Shown in pieces: positions 560 to 13,639 of a DNA stretch of 64,000 nucleotides. Under the pieces are notes generated by a model. That model did no database searches, was not told the origin of the DNA, and was given only the letters and a program-made list of their open reading frames with translations. The stretch comes from Gammaproteobacteria bacterium (lineage in GTDB: Bacteria > Pseudomonadota > Gammaproteobacteria > SZUA-229). The stretch lies in assembly GCA_029882395.1 (NCBI GenBank), contig JAOUKT010000003.1, positions 1 to 64,000 on the forward strand, written 5' to 3'. A program made the translations under genes and the position numbers. How positions within the stretch are numbered: position 1 is the stretch's first letter; every line of letters starts with the position of its first letter.

Positions 560-576
560 TGCAGAAAGCAGGCCAA
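560..576 (-). promoter_or_regulatory. Sigma-54 (RpoN) promoter of glnK-amtB
   Basis: On the minus strand the sequence reads TTGGCCTGCTTTCTGCA. The invariant GG (574-573) and GC (562-561) are separated by exactly 10 bases, as required for -24/-12 elements. It departs from the consensus TTGGCAC-N5-TTGCA mainly at the end of the -24 box. The predicted start is near 549, giving a leader of roughly 90 bases to glnK. Two NtrC-like dyads lie further upstream. Confidence 0.75.
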
Positions 577-637: not shown

Positions 638-652
638 GCACGCGATTGGTGC
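638..652. promoter_or_regulatory. NtrC (GlnG) binding site, promoter-proximal
   Basis: GCAC-N7-GTGC dyad within TGCACGCGATTGGTGCG, a near match to the NtrC consensus TGCAC-N5-TGGTGCA. Its centre is about 70 bases upstream of the -24 GG of the glnK sigma-54 promoter, a normal enhancer position. Confidence 0.7.
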
Positions 653-678: not shown

Positions 679-693
679 GCACCATGCTGGTGC
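679..693. promoter_or_regulatory. NtrC (GlnG) binding site, distal
   Basis: Second GCAC-N7-GTGC dyad (CGCACCATGCTGGTGCG). Its centre is 41 bases from the proximal site, about four helical turns, so two NtrC dimers would sit on the same face of the DNA. Paired sites are typical of NtrC enhancers. Confidence 0.7.
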
Positions 694-1033: not shown

Positions 1034-1069
1034 CAAAAAAAAAGGGCGCCAATACTGGCGCCCTTTTTT
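1034..1069 (-). terminator. Rho-independent terminator of the TorF porin gene
   Basis: Perfect 8-bp stem GGGCGCCA/TGGCGCCC (1044-1051 with 1056-1063) and a 4-base loop. On the minus strand it is followed by a long T run. A T run also follows on the plus strand, so it could work in both directions. It lies about 30 bases beyond the stop codon of the porin gene. Confidence 0.9.
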
Positions 1070-1096: not shown

Positions 1097-1747
1097 TTAT
1101 TTGCTGATCGGCAATGAATACGAAACAACAAACAATGAGGCCAGCGCAGGATCGCCCGTAGCAGCATCATCATCGTTAGGGAAGCTCATTGTCAGCGTTA
1201 ATTCATTTGATGCGGCAAAGCTGACATCAAAGTGAGAGGTATCACCACCGACAGCATCGGTTGCGTTCATGCCGTAAGTGAAGCTGACATCACCAATCGC
1301 GTAACCTAATGTTGTATAAGTATAACCATCACCTGATACCAGGCCTAATGAAACATCCATATATCCGAGACCCAGTGCCGTTTCGGTAGCCGCTTCAGCG
1401 CCATAAGATTGTGGATAGTCAATCGACCAGTAACTCAGGTCATATGAAAAACCTGATACTTCACCGGCATAACCCAACCAGGCATCAAATTCATAACCGC
1501 CGCCATCTGTCTCGTTACTGCCAATACCGCTTGATGCCCAGACACTGGCATAAGCACCCGATGCATGTGAATAATCCGCACCGCCTGAAACCGCAGGGCC
1601 GTTACTTGCATCAGTACCACGGAATAAGTACATGGAAGACACAGCGGCGTTATAACCGAACTCTGCGTTAGCAGTAGTCGGTGCCATTGCAGGAATGGCT
1701 AAAACGGCTGCCGCCGCTAAGGCTTTAAGATTTGTAGTCAGTTTCAT
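1097..1747 (-). CDS. TorF family putative porin
   Basis: A 216-residue outer-membrane protein with a clear signal peptide (cleavage near TANA-EFGYN). The body is rich in aromatic and glycine beta strands, starting with YNAAVSSMYLFRGTDASNG, which is the hallmark of the TorF/TIGR02001 porin family. Homologues of about 215-250 residues are predicted beta-barrels of unknown substrate. An AGGAGAA-like Shine-Dalgarno precedes the ATG. It has its own sigma-54 promoter (1867-1884), an NtrC-like dyad and a strong terminator, and sits next to glnK-amtB. This suggests a role in nitrogen-compound uptake across the outer membrane. The family call is firm; the substrate is inference. Confidence 0.85.
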   Translation of the reverse strand: MKLTTNLKALAAAAVLAIPAMAPTTANAEFGYNAAVSSMYLFRGTDASNGPAVSGGADYSHASGAYASVWASSGIGSNETDGGGYEFDAWLGYAGEVSGFSYDLSYWSIDYPQSYGAEAATETALGLGYMDVSLGLVSGDGYTYTTLGYAIGDVSFTYGMNATDAVGGDTSHFDVSFAASNELTLTMSFPNDDDAATGDPALASLFVVSYSLPISK

Positions 1748-1866
1748 TTTATTTAATTCTCCGAGTTAGGCATAGTTGCCCGCTTTATTGAGTTTACAAA
1801 CCATAATCATTTTCTGAACTCATCGTGCTGTCATGCCGGATAATGATCATGGATTGAATTTGATAA

Positions 1867-1884
1867 TTGCAACTGCCATGCCAA
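1867..1884 (-). promoter_or_regulatory. Sigma-54 (RpoN) promoter of the TorF porin gene
   Basis: The minus strand reads TTGGCATGGCAGTTGCAA, an almost perfect -24/-12 sequence. GG is at 1882-1881, GC at 1870-1869 and the spacing is exactly 10 bases. The predicted start is near 1857, about 110 bases before the porin ATG. Confidence 0.85.
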
Positions 1885-1947
1885 CTAATTTAAGTTAATA
1901 AAAACAATACGTTAAACACAATGGTGATAATTTAACCGTATCGTCAA

Positions 1948-1962
1948 GCACCAAATCAGTGC
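1948..1962. promoter_or_regulatory. NtrC-like binding site upstream of the TorF porin
   Basis: GCACCAAATCAGTGC has the GCAC-N7-GTGC symmetry of the two glnK-side NtrC sites. It is centred about 75 bases upstream of the porin's -24 element. No second dyad was found. The rest of the 304-base gap (1748-2051) holds only AT-rich sequence and an imperfect hairpin near 1992-2030. Confidence 0.55.
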
Positions 1963-2051: not shown

Positions 2052-3224
2052 TCATTTATTATGCGTTCGCACCCAGTCGGTTAGCTCTGCTGCCGGCATT
2101 GGTTTCGCAATGTGGTATCCCTGGCCAATGTTGCAGCCTAGCCCGGCCAGGCTCTTTTGAATTTCATCGCTTTCAATGCCTTCAGCAACCACCGTCATAT
2201 TCAGTTTATGCGCCAGCATGACGCAGGTTTCGACAATTGAATATGCATCCGCATCAGCAATCATGTGTTTGACAAAGCTCATGTCGATTTTTAATTCTGT
2301 GAAGGGAACCCGATGCAATAACACCAGTGATGAGTTGCCGGTGCCAAAGTCATCTATTGATAAACCAAAACCTTTCATGCGCAAGCGGGTCAGTATATCG
2401 AGTGAGGTTTTTAGTTCGCCCATCAGTGCGCTTTCTGTTATTTCGAGCATAATCGAGCCCGGGTTCAAGCCGTGATGGTTGATCTGTTCTGTTAACTGTT
2501 CGGGCAGCGATAGACTGGTGATATTTTTGGCGGAAACATTCACCGACACCGTTATATTCAGGCCCTGGGTTTTCCAGATATTGCTCTGATGAATGGCCAT
2601 ATTAATAATGCTGGTTGTGAGTTCATCCATCATGCCTTCTGCTTCAGCCAGCGCGATGAACATGGCGGGTGTAATCAGCCCTTTTGTGGGGTGTTGCCAG
2701 CGGACCAGTGCTTCTACGCCAGCCAAAGCATTGTTGTCTAACGCGATTTGTGGCTGATAAAACAGGATCATTTGCTGGCTTTTAATGCCTTCTAGTAACT
2801 CCTGTGCGGTTATCGTTTCCTGCTGCAGCCCAATCGGATACGGAATGTCATGATCAGCCAGATCGATTGTCGATAACATGTTAATGAAAACGGAAATCTG
2901 TAACGGTTTGGTGAGACTACCGACAACATTGAGATGGTGCTCTTCTGCCAGTTTTACGGCTGAATGCAACACGCTGGCGTCATAACCGCTGACCAGGATC
3001 AGGTGTATCTTATGGCCGGCTTTACCCAGTTGGCGAATGACTTCGACGCCATCCATAGTCGGCATATTAAGGTCCAGCACCATCACGTGATAGAACAGGC
3101 CCTGATCAAAATACTCCCGGGCATCATTACAAACCGTTGTTTCAAAGCCCGCTGCTCTTGCCGCAGCGCCTAATAAATTAGAGAACTGCGTGTCGTCGTC
3201 AATGACTATCAAATTATTATTCAT
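2052..3224 (-). CDS. Response regulator with EAL c-di-GMP phosphodiesterase domain
   Basis: A 390-residue two-domain protein. Residues 1-125 are a receiver: acidic pocket D9-D11, phospho-acceptor D51 in VLDLNMPTMDG, and conserved K in LTKP. Residues 140-385 are an EAL domain with the catalytic motifs intact: EALVRW, SVNVSAKN, EITES, DDFGTG, the catalytic Lys, AEGIES and GQGYHIAKP. It should hydrolyse cyclic di-GMP when its receiver is phosphorylated. No partner histidine kinase lies beside it. It follows the BIG_2 lipoprotein gene by 70 bases on the same strand and may be co-transcribed with the MFS/barrel/lipoprotein genes. Activity is inferred from motifs. Confidence 0.88.
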   Translation of the reverse strand: MNNNLIVIDDDTQFSNLLGAAARAAGFETTVCNDAREYFDQGLFYHVMVLDLNMPTMDGVEVIRQLGKAGHKIHLILVSGYDASVLHSAVKLAEEHHLNVVGSLTKPLQISVFINMLSTIDLADHDIPYPIGLQQETITAQELLEGIKSQQMILFYQPQIALDNNALAGVEALVRWQHPTKGLITPAMFIALAEAEGMMDELTTSIINMAIHQSNIWKTQGLNITVSVNVSAKNITSLSLPEQLTEQINHHGLNPGSIMLEITESALMGELKTSLDILTRLRMKGFGLSIDDFGTGNSSLVLLHRVPFTELKIDMSFVKHMIADADAYSIVETCVMLAHKLNMTVVAEGIESDEIQKSLAGLGCNIGQGYHIAKPMPAAELTDWVRTHNK

Positions 3225-3294: not shown

Positions 3295-4503
3295 CTAGGG
3301 TACGACATACACGGTAATGTCTGCTGTTTCACCGGAAAAGCTCGCCACGACTTTTCCAAAACCCAAGGCGTCGGCTGTGACTAAACCAAAGCTGTCTACG
3401 CTAATGGCGACACTGCCGCTATCGACAGACCAGCTCACCTGGTCCGTGACATCAACAGGTGTTTGCGGGTCACTGACATAGTAGGCCGTCGCTGTCATCT
3501 GCTGGGTACTGCCCAGAGTCAGTTCAAAACCTAACGGCTCTGGCCCAATTTCAAATGCACTGATGTTGTTCACATCAACCGTGACCGTGCTGGAAACTGG
3601 CAAGATTGTGCTGCCACAGGCCGCTGTTATCGTTGTGGTACCAACGGCCAGTGCGGTTACTATACCGTCGTTATTGGCGAAGTCAGCTACGCTGGGAATG
3701 CTGCTTTGCCAGTTTGCCGCGGCTGTAATATCAGGCTCAGTCTCGCTGCCATAATCGGCCGAGAGTACAAAGCTCTGCTCGCTGCCGACGGTGAGCGTGA
3801 CCGCCGCGGGCGACAATGCCATGCTGGTAATGTCGTCGACCAGCGTGACGGCGGCAGCCGGGCTGCTGATGCCCAACGTTGCCGTCACATTGGTGGCCAC
3901 CACATCATAGTGGGTGATTGATGGCGGCGTGCTGTCGCTGACTAGCGTAGCGCCTGCGGTGGTCGTGCTCCAGCTTACCGCCGGGGTGATATTTCGCAGA
4001 CTGGCATCATCATAAGTGGCCATGGCCTTCAATGGCAGCGGCCGGCAGACACTGGTTGTTAAATCCTCTGTTAGCGTGTCCGCTTTGACTTCTATAGAGA
4101 CCAGTGCTGCTGAAGAAAACGTCACATCCATGCTGGCAGAAAAACCTGACAGCGTCGCGGTAACGGTGACCATGCCATCTTGTGATATCGACTGTAACAG
4201 TCCCGTGGCACTGATGAAGGCCAATGAAGCATCGTCCACTGACCAGCTGACCATTTCCGACAGATCAATCGTGGTATTTTGTGAGGTAGTGCCGGTGACG
4301 GTGATTTGCTGGTTCTCGCCTGTGGTTATCACTGTGTTTAAGGCGCTGATACTGATGGATTGCACATCATTAAATTCAACGATCAGCGATTCATATAATG
4401 GCCGGGGATCACCACTGCTGCAGGCTAACAACAGGCTTAATACACCGGCCGCTGGCAGGTAACGAAAAAGCAGGACGTTTAACCATCGATTAATCAAATA
4501 CAT
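3295..4503 (-). CDS. Lipoprotein with Ig-like (BIG_2) repeats
   Basis: A 402-residue predicted lipoprotein with a hydrophobic N-terminus and lipobox LLAC (Cys28). The rest is about four Ig-like repeats of the BIG_2 type, recognisable by phrases such as VSWSVDDAS...ATGLL, NWQSSIPSVA...GIVTALAVGTTTITA and VSWSVDSGSVAISVDSFGLVTA. BIG_2 domains are found in surface adhesins and polysaccharide-associated proteins. Its start overlaps the end of the upstream barrel gene by 14 bases, so the two are translationally linked. The repeat type is the same as in the giant lipoprotein at 7184-13639, but it is short and more divergent. Partner and ligand are unknown. Confidence 0.75.
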   Translation of the reverse strand: MYLINRWLNVLLFRYLPAAGVLSLLLACSSGDPRPLYESLIVEFNDVQSISISALNTVITTGENQQITVTGTTSQNTTIDLSEMVSWSVDDASLAFISATGLLQSISQDGMVTVTATLSGFSASMDVTFSSAALVSIEVKADTLTEDLTTSVCRPLPLKAMATYDDASLRNITPAVSWSTTTAGATLVSDSTPPSITHYDVVATNVTATLGISSPAAAVTLVDDITSMALSPAAVTLTVGSEQSFVLSADYGSETEPDITAAANWQSSIPSVADFANNDGIVTALAVGTTTITAACGSTILPVSSTVTVDVNNISAFEIGPEPLGFELTLGSTQQMTATAYYVSDPQTPVDVTDQVSWSVDSGSVAISVDSFGLVTADALGFGKVVASFSGETADITVYVVP

Positions 4504-7183: not shown

Positions 7184-10100
7184 CTAGGGTGTATAACTTG
7201 CTAAAAAGGCGAATAATGTGCTGGTACTGACATCTGCTAATGTGAAACCGGCTTGCACGCCATTGTCTACAATATCGCTATCTAATGTGAAAATAGCCCA
7301 GGCATAGCCACCAGCAGCCAGATTACCGCCATTAAAATTAAGCCCCGAAACCGGCGTTATTAAATCAGTGCCGCCATTAACAATATGATATGAAAAAATC
7401 TTAAAATTGCGATTGGATACGTTCTGCATAGTAACGCCAAAAGAACTGCCCGCTAAATACTGCCCATTGCTGTACAGCGATTCTGAAAAAGCTGTTCGTG
7501 TTAACACATTGGCAAAGTTATCGGTGGCGTAAATATTAGTAGTGCTCTCAAAACTGCTGCCTTGCAACTGCGCCTTAACACTAATAAAGCCAATATTTGT
7601 AGAAGTGATGGTGAGAGTTGCCACACCACCTACAGTGCCTACTGTTGTAGGCGTATCAATCCCATTATCAGTTACCGTAAAGTCTATCAAGGTGCCATCG
7701 GCAATCACACCACTGGCATCTGCCGGTTGCACCGTCACACTAACCACTGAGCTGTCGACGTTGTTATTCAATATTACGTTTGGCGAGGCATGCGCACTAA
7801 TGCCGATCGGTTCATCGGGCCGCAATTGCACTGTTAGGCTTAAAGCCGAACTGTTGATAGTGTTTAGCGTAGCGGTGATGTCTGAGACACCCGCGCTGTA
7901 ACCGAACGCTCCACCTTTGTTCTCGCTAACATTGCTGATAACGGCAACCGCATTATCACTGCTCTGCCAGGTCACGTCTTTTGTAATGTCCTGAGTGCTG
8001 GCGTCTGAATAGGTGCCTGTCGCGGTAATGGCTAGTGCTTCACCTACCACTATCTGTGTTTTAGCCGCTGTTAATGCGATCGATGACAAGGTGGCTGGTG
8101 TCACCGTCAGGCTGCTGTTATCACTTACCCCGCCATGACTTGCACTGATTAAAGTAGATCCGGCATTATGCCCGAACACCACGGCCTTAGTATCCGCATC
8201 ATTACTTATCGTCGCTGTGGCTGGCGTTGCACTGGCCCAGATCACGTCCTGGCTAATATCCCGGCTTTCACCGTCTGAAAAAAGACCGCTGGCGCTATAT
8301 TGGAACTGAGTACCTTTTGCGATTGATATAGCTGTCTGCTCGATACTGATGCTGCTGAGTGTTGCTGCATTGACATTCAGGCTGGCAAAGCCAAATACAC
8401 CTCCGCTTTCGGCGCTAACGGTTACATTACCCGCACTATAAGACTGGATAGTTGACTTCAGATTATTGTCACTGGCAGCAACCGCTAAATTGGAGCTGTT
8501 CCAGCTCACCTGCTCGGTGATGTCATTGGTCGAACCATCTGAATAATGCCCGATTGCGCTGTAGCGCTGACTAAAGCCGGTGCTAATGGTTGCCGCATTC
8601 GGGAAGATTTCAATACTGTTTAAAACCACGGTTGACACATTGAGCGCTTTATTGCTCAACACCGAACCAAGTTGCGCACTGATGGTGGTATCACCACTCA
8701 GCAGTGTGGTGCACAGGCCTTTAGTCGTGGCGCTGTTATCAATCGTTGCAACTGCGGCATTCGATGAAAACCAGGTCACAAAATTGGTGATATCCTGAAT
8801 AGTATTATCAGTATAAATACCCGTTGCGGTGAACTGCTGAGCCACACCTAAAGGCAGGCTTTGCTTAAGCGGTGTGATTTCAATAGCCATCAGCACAGCT
8901 GATGTTACCGTCACGCTCTGCGTCACACTTAAGCCATTATAAATAGCAGTAACAGTCGCTGTTCCGATACCATGACTATCAAGCAAACCATTCGCATCGA
9001 CACTGACTACTGACAGATCATCGCTCTGCCAGACCGCCTGAGTCGTCACCAGCTGGCTGTCAGAATTACTATAAATCGCTGTTAGCTGTAACTGTTGACT
9101 ACTGCCTAAGGACAGGCTGGCGTTTAATGCACTCATCTCTAATAGATCGAGAGTGGCGTCGGTTACACTAATCGTCGCGATGCCATTAATGCCATTTAAT
9201 GAAGCGGCAATTGCTGTACTGCCTACCGATTTAGCGATGAAGGCTCCGGCTGCGTTATTAACGGCTTCAGCAATCAGGCTGTCATCCACATACCAGCTCA
9301 CTTGCTGTGTTATATCCTGTGTCGAGTTATCACTGTAATAACCGGTGGCCACAAACTGATATTCCACTCCCTCGGCGATCGAAGTGATCGATGGTGTGAC
9401 ACTGATAGAGGTTAAAATAGCTGCCGTCACTGTAATGCTGGCCGCGCTATTCTTGCCGGCTAAGTGCGCACTAATGCTTACCTCGCCCGTAGCCAGACCT
9501 GTGACGATACCGCTTGATGATACTTGCGCAATCATCAAATCACTCGATAGCCAGCTCACCTGCTCGGTTATGTCCTGACTGGTCTGATCCGAATAAATAC
9601 CGGTGGCCTGCAGGCTGACACTGGTACCGTTTGCAATCGAAGACGATGTGGGTGAGACACTGATTGATGATAATGTCGCTGCAGTAACCGTTATGCTAGC
9701 AACACCGGTCTGACCACTGAGGCTGGCACTGATCGTTGCGGCACCCTCAAGATTGGCCGTAACCTGACCGCCAGGCGCGACTTCGGCAATTGTCGCCGCA
9801 CTCGATTGCCAGCTAACCTCAGCGGTTATGTTCTGAGTGCTTAAGTCGGTATATACACCGATTGCCTGCAAGCTGAGATGGCTGCCTTTTGCTATTGCGC
9901 TGACGCCCGGGGTCACTGTAATGGCATTCAGAGTTGCCGGGGTTACACTGACAATAGAAACACCGCTTACGCCATCTAAACTGGCACTGATGCTGCTCGC
10001 ACCAACAGTCAAAGCCGTGACCTTGCCTGCTGGTGTTACCTCTGCAATCACTGGATCTGCCGACTTCCAGTTCACCTCTGCGGTGATATCCTGACTGCTT

Positions 10101-13100
10101 TGATCAGTGTAAATACCGGTAGCCTGCAAACTGACACTGGTGCCATTGGCAATTGAAACCGAACCTGGTGTCACACTAATCGACACTAAGCTGGCCTCTG
10201 TCACCGTAATGGCCGCGATACCGCTAACGCCATCCAGGCTGGCATTAATATCTGCCAGGCCCTGACTGTTTGCCGTCACCACGCCTGCGATTGTGACTTC
10301 GGCAATCACATCACTTGTCGATTGCCAGCTGACCTTATCGGTTAAATCCTGCGTGGTCTGGTCAGAATAGTACCCCGTTGCCTGCAGCTTCACGCTGGTG
10401 CCTTTGGCAATAGAGACGATCCCCGGTGTCACGCTGATTTCATCTAAGGTCGCACCGGTGACCGTAATAACAGAAGCGCTGCTTATGCCCTGATAACTCG
10501 CACTGATGTTCACACTGCCAATAACAAGCGCGGTGACCTCGCCCGTCTGTGTTACTTCTGCCGCTGCACTATCGGATATCCAGCTGACCTTGGTTGTTAA
10601 ATCCTGTGTGCTCTGGTCCGAATAGTGACCTGTCGCCTGCAGCTTCACGCTGGTGCCTGCTGCCAGTGACTTCACGCCCGGCGTCACACTGATAGAATCT
10701 AAGGTCGCCGGCGTCACCGTGACAACCGAAACACTGCTTTTACCCTGATAACTCGCGCTGATGTTTGCCGTGCCGATAGCAAGTGCGGTGACCTCACCCG
10801 TCTGCGTTACTTCTGCCGCTGCACTATCGGATATCCAGCTGGCCTGATCGCTTAAATCCTGTGTGCTCTGATCCGAATAATAACCTGTCACCTGCAGCTT
10901 CACGCTGGTGCCTGCTGCCAGTGATTTCACGCCCGGGGTAATGCTGATCGAGTCTAAGATCGCCGGCGTGACTGTAATCACAGAATCACCTGTAAAACCA
11001 CCCATGCTCGCACTGATATTAGCCGTGCCGATAGCAAGCGCGGTGACCTCACCCGTTTGCGTTACTTCTGCCGCTGCACTATCAGATATCCAGCTGACCT
11101 TATCAGTTAAGTTCTGAGTACTTTGATCGCTATATATACCAGTAGCAGCTAATACAGCACTGGTGCCGTTAGCCAGAGAAACGGTTCCCGGCGTCACACT
11201 AATGCCATTTAATGTCGCTGCTGTGATGGTGATTACTGAAGTGCCGTTTATGCCCCCCAGGCTAGCGCTAATATTTGCACTGCCAATAGCAAGGGCGGTA
11301 ACCCTGCCTAACGGAGTGACTTCTGCAGCCACATTATCCGATTGCCAGCTAACCTTAGTGGTTAGATCCTGCGTAGTCTGGTCTGAATAAATACCAGTTG
11401 CCTGTAAAACAACATCGGTTCCTGCTGCGACAGAAACCACGCCCGGCGTGACACTGATCGAGCTTAAGGTGGCAGGTGTGACCGTAATGGCCGATACACT
11501 GCTCTGGCCACCTAAGCTCGCTGTGATATCGGCGGGCCCTATGCTATTAGCGGTAACCAGGCCAGCCTGAGTCACTTCAGCTATCGCATCGTTGGTCGAT
11601 TGCCAGCTCACCTGATCGGTTAAATCCTGCGTGCTCTGATCAGAATAGTGACCTGTCGCCTGCAGCTTTGTGCTGGTACCTGCTGCCAGCGCTACCACGC
11701 CCGGGGTCACGCTAATTGCATCTAAGGTCGCTTCGGTAACCGTAATTGCGGAAACAGCTATAAAACCCTCTAAGCTCGCACTGATATTAGCCGTGCCGAT
11801 AGCAAGCGCGGTGACCTCACCCGTCTGCGTTACTTCTGCCGCTGCACTATCGGATATCCAGCTGACCTTGGCGCTTAAATCCTGGGTGCTTTGATCGGTG
11901 TAAATGCCGGTCGCGACCAGTACCTCACTGGTGCCATTAGCCAGAGACACCAGACCTGGCGTTACGCTAATGCCATTTAAAACGGCTGCTGTCACCGTGA
12001 TCAATGAAGAACTACTGAAGCCATCAATGCTGGCGGTGACACTGCTGCTTCCGATGCTCAGGCCAGTCACCAAACCAGAGGCCGAAACATTAGCTATATC
12101 ATTATTGGACAACCAGCTGACCTGATCGGTTAAGTCCTGAGTGCTCTGATCGGTATAAACACCGGTTGCAATCAGTGCCTTGCTGGTACCACTGGCAATC
12201 GAGACAACGCCGGGGGTCACGCTAATGCTGCTTAAAGTGGCATCTGTAACAGTGATAATGGCGGCATTACTGCTAACACCTCCAATACTGGCGCTAATAC
12301 TGGCGCTACCTAAACTAAAGCCTGTCACCAGTCCCGAGACGGAGACATCAGCGATTGCAGGACTACTCGACGACCAGTTTGCCTGATGGCTTAAGTTCTG
12401 GGTCGTCTGGTCTGAATAAACACCGGTCGCGATCAAAGCTACATTGGTGCCATTAGCTATCGACTTCACACCCGGGGTCACACTCATCGATACCAATATG
12501 GCATCCGTCACTTCAACCTGCGATGTGCCTGTAATGCTACCGGAGCTCGCACTAATCGTGGCCGTGCCGATGCTTTTAGCTGTCACCAGACCAGTAACGA
12601 CATCCGCATTAGGCGAATTAGACTGCCAGTTCACAGTATCGGTTAAATCCTGCGTTGTGTTATCGGTATAGATACCCGTTGCAATTAACGCCACGCTGGT
12701 GCCATTGGCTATCGAAGGTTTGCCGGGTGTGACGCTTATCAGTGTTAACTCGGCTTCGGTCACTGTCACCGTTGAGGCACCACTAATACCACCCAGGCTG
12801 GCACTGACGCTGCTGCTACCCGTGTTTATCCCTGTGACCAGACCCGATGCGCTGACTCTAACTTTTAGACTGTCATTTGACTGCCAGCTGACCTGACTTG
12901 TCAGGTTCTGAGTGCTTTGATCTGAATAGACACCGCTTGCCTGTAAAGCAATGCTGGTGCCTTTAGCAATGGATGCCGCAACTGGGGTGACGTTAATCGA
13001 GACTAATACAGCCGAAGTAACGGTGACTGATGAGCTGCTAATGAAATCACCCATACTGGCACTGATATCAACCAGGCCCTGGCTGTTAGCTGACAGCTGC

Positions 13101-13639
13101 CCTTGTGTATTAACAGTGGCTATCGCTGCATTTGACGACAACCAGCTGACATCGCTACTGATGTCCTGAGAGGTTTGGTCCGAGTAGGTGCCGGTGGCCG
13201 TTAGCGCGAGACTTGTGCCATTAGCGATGGAGACCGTACCGGGGGAGACTACAAGCGACACTAAGGTGGCTGAGGTAATGGTAATCGAGGTCGTATTACT
13301 CACCCCGTCAAGACTGGCGCTAATATCGGCCACGCCCTGACTATTACCGCTCAGTTGGCCTGACGCACTGATATCGGCAACAGCGCTATCACTCGACAGC
13401 CAGCTAACATCACTGCTGATATCCTGTGTACTTTGGTCAGAATAAGTACCGGTTGCCTGCAGGCTAACACTGGTGCCGCTGGCGATGGACACCTCTGCCG
13501 GCGTGATACTGATAGAATCTAATGTCGGTGTAGATGGGCCGGATGAACCTGAACTGCCGCAGGCGCTCAGAAATAATAACCCGATTAGCGCCAGACTAGA
13601 GTGGGTTTTATATGTAAAAAATGCCGATAGAAATTTCAT
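7184..13639 (-). CDS. Giant lipoprotein with about 22 tandem BIG_2-like Ig repeats
   Basis: A 2151-residue predicted surface lipoprotein. The N-terminal signal ends in lipobox LSAC (Cys27), followed by a Ser/Gly linker. From about residue 39 to 1940 there are about 22 repeats of 84-90 residues. Each opens with a T-L-x-S-I-S-V-T-P phrase, continues TGxYSDQSTQDLT...VSWxSxxxxxAxV and closes with GxxxISASxxGxxxxxxITVTxA. Repeats 1-16 are close copies and repeats 17-22 are more diverged. A BIG_1-like segment and a unique C-terminal domain of about 110 residues follow (after FANVLTRTAF). There is no visible sortase, autotransporter or type I secretion signal. Such proteins often act in adhesion or as extended stalks; here function is unknown. 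Confidence 0.85.
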   Translation of the reverse strand: MKFLSAFFTYKTHSSLALIGLLFLSACGSSGSSGPSTPTLDSISITPAEVSIASGTSVSLQATGTYSDQSTQDISSDVSWLSSDSAVADISASGQLSGNSQGVADISASLDGVSNTTSITITSATLVSLVVSPGTVSIANGTSLALTATGTYSDQTSQDISSDVSWLSSNAAIATVNTQGQLSANSQGLVDISASMGDFISSSSVTVTSAVLVSINVTPVAASIAKGTSIALQASGVYSDQSTQNLTSQVSWQSNDSLKVRVSASGLVTGINTGSSSVSASLGGISGASTVTVTEAELTLISVTPGKPSIANGTSVALIATGIYTDNTTQDLTDTVNWQSNSPNADVVTGLVTAKSIGTATISASSGSITGTSQVEVTDAILVSMSVTPGVKSIANGTNVALIATGVYSDQTTQNLSHQANWSSSSPAIADVSVSGLVTGFSLGSASISASIGGVSSNAAIITVTDATLSSISVTPGVVSIASGTSKALIATGVYTDQSTQDLTDQVSWLSNNDIANVSASGLVTGLSIGSSSVTASIDGFSSSSLITVTAAVLNGISVTPGLVSLANGTSEVLVATGIYTDQSTQDLSAKVSWISDSAAAEVTQTGEVTALAIGTANISASLEGFIAVSAITVTEATLDAISVTPGVVALAAGTSTKLQATGHYSDQSTQDLTDQVSWQSTNDAIAEVTQAGLVTANSIGPADITASLGGQSSVSAITVTPATLSSISVTPGVVSVAAGTDVVLQATGIYSDQTTQDLTTKVSWQSDNVAAEVTPLGRVTALAIGSANISASLGGINGTSVITITAATLNGISVTPGTVSLANGTSAVLAATGIYSDQSTQNLTDKVSWISDSAAAEVTQTGEVTALAIGTANISASMGGFTGDSVITVTPAILDSISITPGVKSLAAGTSVKLQVTGYYSDQSTQDLSDQASWISDSAAAEVTQTGEVTALAIGTANISASYQGKSSVSVVTVTPATLDSISVTPGVKSLAAGTSVKLQATGHYSDQSTQDLTTKVSWISDSAAAEVTQTGEVTALVIGSVNISASYQGISSASVITVTGATLDEISVTPGIVSIAKGTSVKLQATGYYSDQTTQDLTDKVSWQSTSDVIAEVTIAGVVTANSQGLADINASLDGVSGIAAITVTEASLVSISVTPGSVSIANGTSVSLQATGIYTDQSSQDITAEVNWKSADPVIAEVTPAGKVTALTVGASSISASLDGVSGVSIVSVTPATLNAITVTPGVSAIAKGSHLSLQAIGVYTDLSTQNITAEVSWQSSAATIAEVAPGGQVTANLEGAATISASLSGQTGVASITVTAATLSSISVSPTSSSIANGTSVSLQATGIYSDQTSQDITEQVSWLSSDLMIAQVSSSGIVTGLATGEVSISAHLAGKNSAASITVTAAILTSISVTPSITSIAEGVEYQFVATGYYSDNSTQDITQQVSWYVDDSLIAEAVNNAAGAFIAKSVGSTAIAASLNGINGIATISVTDATLDLLEMSALNASLSLGSSQQLQLTAIYSNSDSQLVTTQAVWQSDDLSVVSVDANGLLDSHGIGTATVTAIYNGLSVTQSVTVTSAVLMAIEITPLKQSLPLGVAQQFTATGIYTDNTIQDITNFVTWFSSNAAVATIDNSATTKGLCTTLLSGDTTISAQLGSVLSNKALNVSTVVLNSIEIFPNAATISTGFSQRYSAIGHYSDGSTNDITEQVSWNSSNLAVAASDNNLKSTIQSYSAGNVTVSAESGGVFGFASLNVNAATLSSISIEQTAISIAKGTQFQYSASGLFSDGESRDISQDVIWASATPATATISNDADTKAVVFGHNAGSTLISASHGGVSDNSSLTVTPATLSSIALTAAKTQIVVGEALAITATGTYSDASTQDITKDVTWQSSDNAVAVISNVSENKGGAFGYSAGVSDITATLNTINSSALSLTVQLRPDEPIGISAHASPNVILNNNVDSSVVSVTVQPADASGVIADGTLIDFTVTDNGIDTPTTVGTVGGVATLTITSTNIGFISVKAQLQGSSFESTTNIYATDNFANVLTRTAFSESLYSNGQYLAGSSFGVTMQNVSNRNFKIFSYHIVNGGTDLITPVSGLNFNGGNLAAGGYAWAIFTLDSDIVDNGVQAGFTLADVSTSTLFAFLASYTP
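7826..13525 (-). repeat. Tandem repeat array inside the giant lipoprotein gene (about 255-258 bp units)
   Basis: About 22 coding repeats with a period near 255-258 bases. Near-identical blocks begin on the plus strand with GCGGTGACCTC at about 10530, 10785, 11040 and 11808, that is at exact multiples of about one repeat. These correspond to repeats 12, 11, 10 and 7 of the protein and share the phrase WISDSAAAEVTQTGEVTAL. Such identity in non-adjacent copies points to recent duplication or gene conversion. Confidence 0.85.

Follow-up and report, generated by a model that had tools for sequence, protein, structure and literature searches.

The gene torF, which precedes glnK and amtB in the 64 kb stretch of DNA that we analysed as a whole (hereafter, the window), probably encodes an outer-membrane channel that is switched on at low nitrogen. 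The best explanation, to which we assign a probability of about 0.62, is that torF belongs to the Ntr regulon as a monocistronic gene and that its product would form a channel in the outer membrane through which small nitrogenous solutes pass during nitrogen starvation.

To our knowledge, it is seldom asked how ammonium or urea crosses the outer membrane when these compounds are scarce, because general porins are assumed to be sufficient. The TorF family (TIGR02001) was detected in 197/370 sampled genomes of the class (about half), and it is often under apparent NtrC/sigma-54 control and paired with AmtB or Urt, which suggests a dedicated outer-membrane step.

Predicted promoters and transcription units of the torF-glnK-amtB locus

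The features of the locus are collected in Table 1. Using a sigma-54 weight matrix built from the well-known consensus, with approximate frequencies, we scored both strands of the window; the torF site reached 18.9 of a possible 21.8, and the runner-up 15.4. The site, TTGGCATGGCAGTTGCA (minus strand, 1884..1868), is one mismatch away from TGGCACN5TTGC, and the near-perfect sigma-54 promoter claimed by the original prediction is the best-scoring of the window. Across the 3.29 Mb genome, TTGGCAYN5TTGCW showed nine matches, while the reversed control pattern showed none. Based on the position of the -12 element, transcription of torF is predicted to start near 1857.

Table 1. Features of the torF-glnK-amtB locus in the window
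Feature	Position	Strand	Evidence or remark
amtB, 5' end, cut by contig end	1..99	-	full amtB after glnK in congener G035
glnK, PII protein, 112 aa	118..456	-	PF00543
Separate sigma-54 promoter of glnK-amtB, TTGGCCTGCTTTCTGCA	560..576	-	TTGGCCTG(N5)CTGCA-type site conserved across four species
Second NtrC-type dyad of glnK, GCACCAATCGCGTGC	638..652	-	motif match
NtrC-type dyad of glnK, perfect, GCACCAGCATGGTGC	679..693	-	motif match
Rho-independent terminator after torF, hairpin GGGCGCC/GGCGCCC and T run	1034..1069	-	equivalent hairpin in each of the four congeneric species
torF, TorF-family putative porin, 216 aa	1097..1747	-	TIGR02001 and PF09694 matches; orthologue in congener G035
Sigma-54 -24/-12 promoter of torF, TTGGCATGGCAGTTGCA	1868..1884	-	top score of the window; position kept in three congeners
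NtrC-type dyad of torF, GCACTGATTTGGTGC (torF direction)	1948..1962	-	centre upstream of the -24 element by about 73 bp

The NtrC-like dyad that had been claimed upstream of torF was likewise recovered. A genome-wide scan for its motif, GCACYN5GGTGC, yielded 13 places (control pattern: 0), including two before glnA, one in the glnA-ntrB gap, one at glnK and one at torF. Both rpoN and ntrC were found in the same genome. The promoter and dyad of torF are thus a real finding, far above chance.

The hairpin behind torF is possibly bidirectional, judging by its symmetry. The layout of a torF promoter with dyad, a terminator and a glnK promoter with dyad(s) is common to all four congeneric species, and it is retained although two of the congeners share only about 46-50% identity in torF. 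Because the terminator and the second promoter are kept in four species, we favour parallel regulation over a single operon: torF and glnK-amtB appear to be separate transcription units that would be fired in parallel, with readthrough possible.

Directly upstream of torF, at 2052-3224 (-), lies a gene for a response regulator with an EAL (c-di-GMP phosphodiesterase) domain, which occupies the same place in G035. Further along, the window encodes a smaller Big_2 protein (3295-4503) and a 2151-aa lipoprotein-like protein with many repeats resembling bacterial Ig-like domains (7184-13639, minus strand).

TorF loci in the same class

The survey covered 120 TorF loci from the class that includes the window's organism; the sample consists of the best-scoring TorFs, its loci are related to each other and some are cut by contig ends. 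In 74/120 of these loci, glnK was found on the same strand at most 1.2 kb downstream of torF, with a median gap of 74 bp. A sigma-54 score of at least 14 was obtained for 48/75 glnK-linked and 18/40 unlinked TorFs, compared to 5/501 other genes of these loci, which served as controls. Perfect matches to the GCAC-N7-GTGC dyad preceded 50/75 glnK-linked TorFs, 5/40 unlinked ones and 9/501 control genes. The original prediction depended on nitrogen genes and sigma-54 promoters being present at homologue loci, and both were found there in these numbers.

The distances between dyad and -24 element cluster near 74, 84, 95, 104, 115, 127 and 137 bp. This spacing shows a period of 10.5 bp (R 0.64), a value reached by 0/5000 jittered sets, and phasing persisted when each distance was counted once (Rayleigh p about 4e-4). 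The 73 bp measured at the torF gene of the window represents one of these phased classes. Such helical phasing would be expected if the DNA loops from a single helix face, and it would be hard to obtain without function.

The sigma-54 promoter and dyad were absent in six of seven checked TorF paralogues of the window's family that are located away from glnK. In two congeners, another TorF paralogue lies in divergent orientation at a distance of 7-12 kb from the first (L061:15510-16148 and L063:15277-15918), without sigma-54 signals and with no obvious adjacent nitrogen genes. A third arrangement of the gene pair was observed at L165, L171 and L177, where torF is divergent from glnK at a distance of about 0.5 kb, with sigma-54 scores of 18.6-20.7 and dyads. 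The TorFs of L108, L128, L131 and L141 are 462-487 aa long and contain two TorF domains per frame; their sigma-54 scores range between 13 and 17, with no glnK in the stretch examined.

NlmA-type and urea-transporter-linked TorFs

In Herbaspirillum seropedicae, the nlmA-glnK-amtB genes (formerly orf1glnKamtB) are NtrC-dependent and 21-fold induced, and NlmA was detected in membranes under nitrogen limitation (PMC3023670). In order to test whether NlmA is a TorF, we used the published H. seropedicae primer GlnKF1, located in the 5' flank of glnK, as a query. Among the 80 loci listed, which do not include H. seropedicae itself, the primer was exact in ten Herbaspirillum genomes, always within the 3' end of the gene directly before glnK. 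The nine of these genomes with a complete frame encode a TorF-like protein of 259-265 aa with a sigma-54 site and dyad upstream, and the three NlmA-type proteins that were scanned matched TIGR02001 at 166-172 bits. In viral contigs, the primer pattern matched unrelated genes only.

The association of TorF with glnK-amtB and its NtrC regulation is therefore already known from Herbaspirillum. In the literature searched, we found no paper naming the TorF family, and no mention of TorF in the nitrogen literature searched for Xylella, Burkholderia, Azoarcus and Pseudomonas stutzeri. The nitrogen regulation that the original prediction assumed torF to share with glnK-amtB thus has strong comparative support, in addition to published experiments for the Herbaspirillum relative (PMC3023670).

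Besides the glnK-linked loci, several TorF genes away from glnK adjoin urtA, whose product is the urea ABC transporter's binding protein. In the 20 sampled UrtA regions of TorF-bearing genomes, torF was found beside urtA in ten cases, eight directly before it and two divergent (L348, L349), and 12/14 urt-linked TorFs showed a sigma-54 score of at least 14. A maximum-likelihood tree was built from 85 proteins; in it, all four TorFs from the genus of the window group with three urt-linked TorFs (bootstrap/SH-aLRT 100/99), which come from unrelated families (L358, L362, L364). NlmA falls in another supported clade, and the ordinary glnK-linked TorFs are also apart from the window clade. A FastTree analysis of 138 rows agrees with this grouping.

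The sister species G036 harbours a compact fmdA-urtABCDE-amiE-(VWA-domain orf)-torF-glnK-amtB cluster (L062:10233-19838), encoding a formamidase (fmdA), an aliphatic amidase (amiE) and a von Willebrand-domain protein (orf), with urease nearby. Its urtA is also preceded by a sigma-54 site and dyad. What the VWA-domain gene contributes to this cluster is not obvious. Neither UrtA nor the urease alpha subunit was found in the window's genome (160 contigs, 94.6% complete), whereas the congeners G035 and G036 have both. This could reflect either loss or an assembly gap, and the window species may keep only the torF-glnK-amtB half.

These data bear on the alternative that torF is an orthologue of NlmA, with the known operon split into two units in this genus and a job tied to ammonium and AmtB only. 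It would fit the same gene order and strand, the 74 class loci that keep torF at most 1.2 kb before glnK, and a window genome with no detected urtA or urease; six of the 74 loci carry a second, internal sigma-54 promoter, so that splitting does occur elsewhere. However, the tree places the window clade with the urt-linked TorFs and apart from the NlmA-type clade, and torF adjoins the urt-amide cluster in G036, which makes this alternative unlikely. A simple split of an nlmA-type operon was favoured at first and was dropped after the trees placed the window TorF with the urt-linked TorFs. What the original prediction had missed is that this gene arrangement had been described before, that glnK would form a transcription unit separate from torF, and that this TorF subclade is otherwise encoded with a urea ABC transporter.

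Proposed role and comparison with known systems

The window protein is a member of the TorF family, although its matches cover part of the protein only: 58.6 bits against TIGR02001 (cut-off 47.15; residues 8-159 only) and 55.4 against PF09694 (cut-off 24; E 1.1e-14; residues 25-154 only). The TorF core residues (Y..RG, G..D, Y...W.S, E.D, G, Y, E) are present, and an alignment of 37 rows, the window protein among them, contains 13 invariant columns. The orthologue in G035 shows 75% identity. The N-terminus is signal-peptide-like (MKLTTNLKALAAAAVLAIPAMAPTTANA/E), and the C-terminal residue is K, instead of the aromatic residue usual in barrel proteins.

We infer that TorF is an outer-membrane pore from the name of the family, its signal peptide, the C-terminus, which is barrel-like in most relatives, and the pairing with AmtB and Urt. 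Alternatively, it could be a nitrogen-regulated envelope protein that forms no channel, for instance a periplasmic or outer-membrane envelope modifier or a helper in AmtB/GlnK signalling. The literature searched contained no report of TorF channel activity, and the authors of the H. seropedicae study considered NlmA most probably periplasmic, as an assumption (PMC3023670). The atypical C-terminus of the window protein points the same way, as do AlphaFold2 models from 10-row alignments, in which the window TorF and a Herbaspirillum NlmA reached pLDDT values of 34 and 43, too low for a confident barrel. A profile search of the PDB with TorF gave no relative, the sole match being at chance level (E 0.35). 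On the other side, most relatives show a barrel-like C-terminal strand, with F as the last residue in 62/120 TorFs and an aromatic residue within the last four in 57/76 glnK-linked TorFs, and an outer-membrane pore would be expected to occur with inner-membrane uptake systems that are unrelated to each other, as TorF does with AmtB and Urt. We therefore consider a function other than a channel improbable.

Taking TorF as a nitrogen-starvation channel, the following mechanism can be proposed. When nitrogen is short, phosphorylated NtrC would bind the torF dyad and, via DNA looping, activate sigma-54 RNA polymerase at the torF promoter; the transcript would stop at the hairpin, and glnK-amtB would be transcribed in parallel, starting at a sigma-54 promoter of its own. 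The exported TorF would form a small beta-barrel in the outer membrane and admit small nitrogenous solutes to the periplasm, from where they could be taken up by AmtB (ammonium) or, in relatives, by the Urt ABC transporter (urea, short amides).

The NtrC/sigma-54 regulation of torF is the best-supported step and is strongly supported. While motif matches alone are no proof, the idea that the -24/-12 element and dyad arose by chance or serve another activator, torF not being nitrogen-regulated, can be dismissed as extremely improbable, since the motifs are kept in four species, rare in the genome and in control genes, and helically phased, and NtrC dependence has been published for Herbaspirillum (PMC3023670). 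Of the nitrogen-starvation outer-membrane channel originally proposed, the regulatory part is thus strongly supported by the comparative data, and the channel part stays an inference.

Natural candidates for the solutes would be ammonium, urea and short amides, which reduces the question of the TorF substrate to a few solutes that can be tested. In the window species, urea is not an obvious cargo, because no UrtA or urease was found in its genome. The closeness of the window TorF to channels linked to a urea transporter nevertheless makes the cargo of the family testable. Of greater interest is the wider pattern, in which TorF belongs to the nitrogen-starvation response and goes together with AmtB or Urt. 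Tentatively, and at slightly less than even odds, the family could represent the missing outer-membrane arm of this response: NtrC/sigma-54-controlled pores for ammonium, urea and short amides at low concentration, some branches with GlnK-AmtB and at least two with UrtABCDE, the window gene being of the urea/amide type.

Among known systems, a functional analogue can be found in Methylophilus methylotrophus, where fmdC presumably adjoins genes for amide and urea transport and formamidase. FmdC is described as a porin for short-chain amides and urea (Mills 1997, cited in PMC5877670). The likeness is that of an outer-membrane porin for small nitrogen compounds; FmdC differs in being amide/urea-induced, and it is likened here by function, with no claim of homology to TorF.

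NlmA, as represented by sequenced Herbaspirillum relatives, resembles the window TorF in that its gene belongs to the TorF family, precedes glnK and amtB on their strand and has a sigma-54 promoter and NtrC dyad. In Herbaspirillum, however, only about 15 bp separate it from glnK and the genes form one operon, whereas a terminator and a second promoter lie between them in the window; moreover, the two proteins show about 30% identity and fall in separate clades. The window TorF thus resembles NlmA in its regulation, yet appears to differ in operon structure and orthology, and for these two reasons we do not file it as NlmA. The urt-linked TorFs of L358, L362 and L364 differ in their surroundings, since the neighbour in the window is glnK-amtB and no urtA was detected in its genome, but they share with the window TorF the same clade, the same sigma-54 control and a similar C-terminus.
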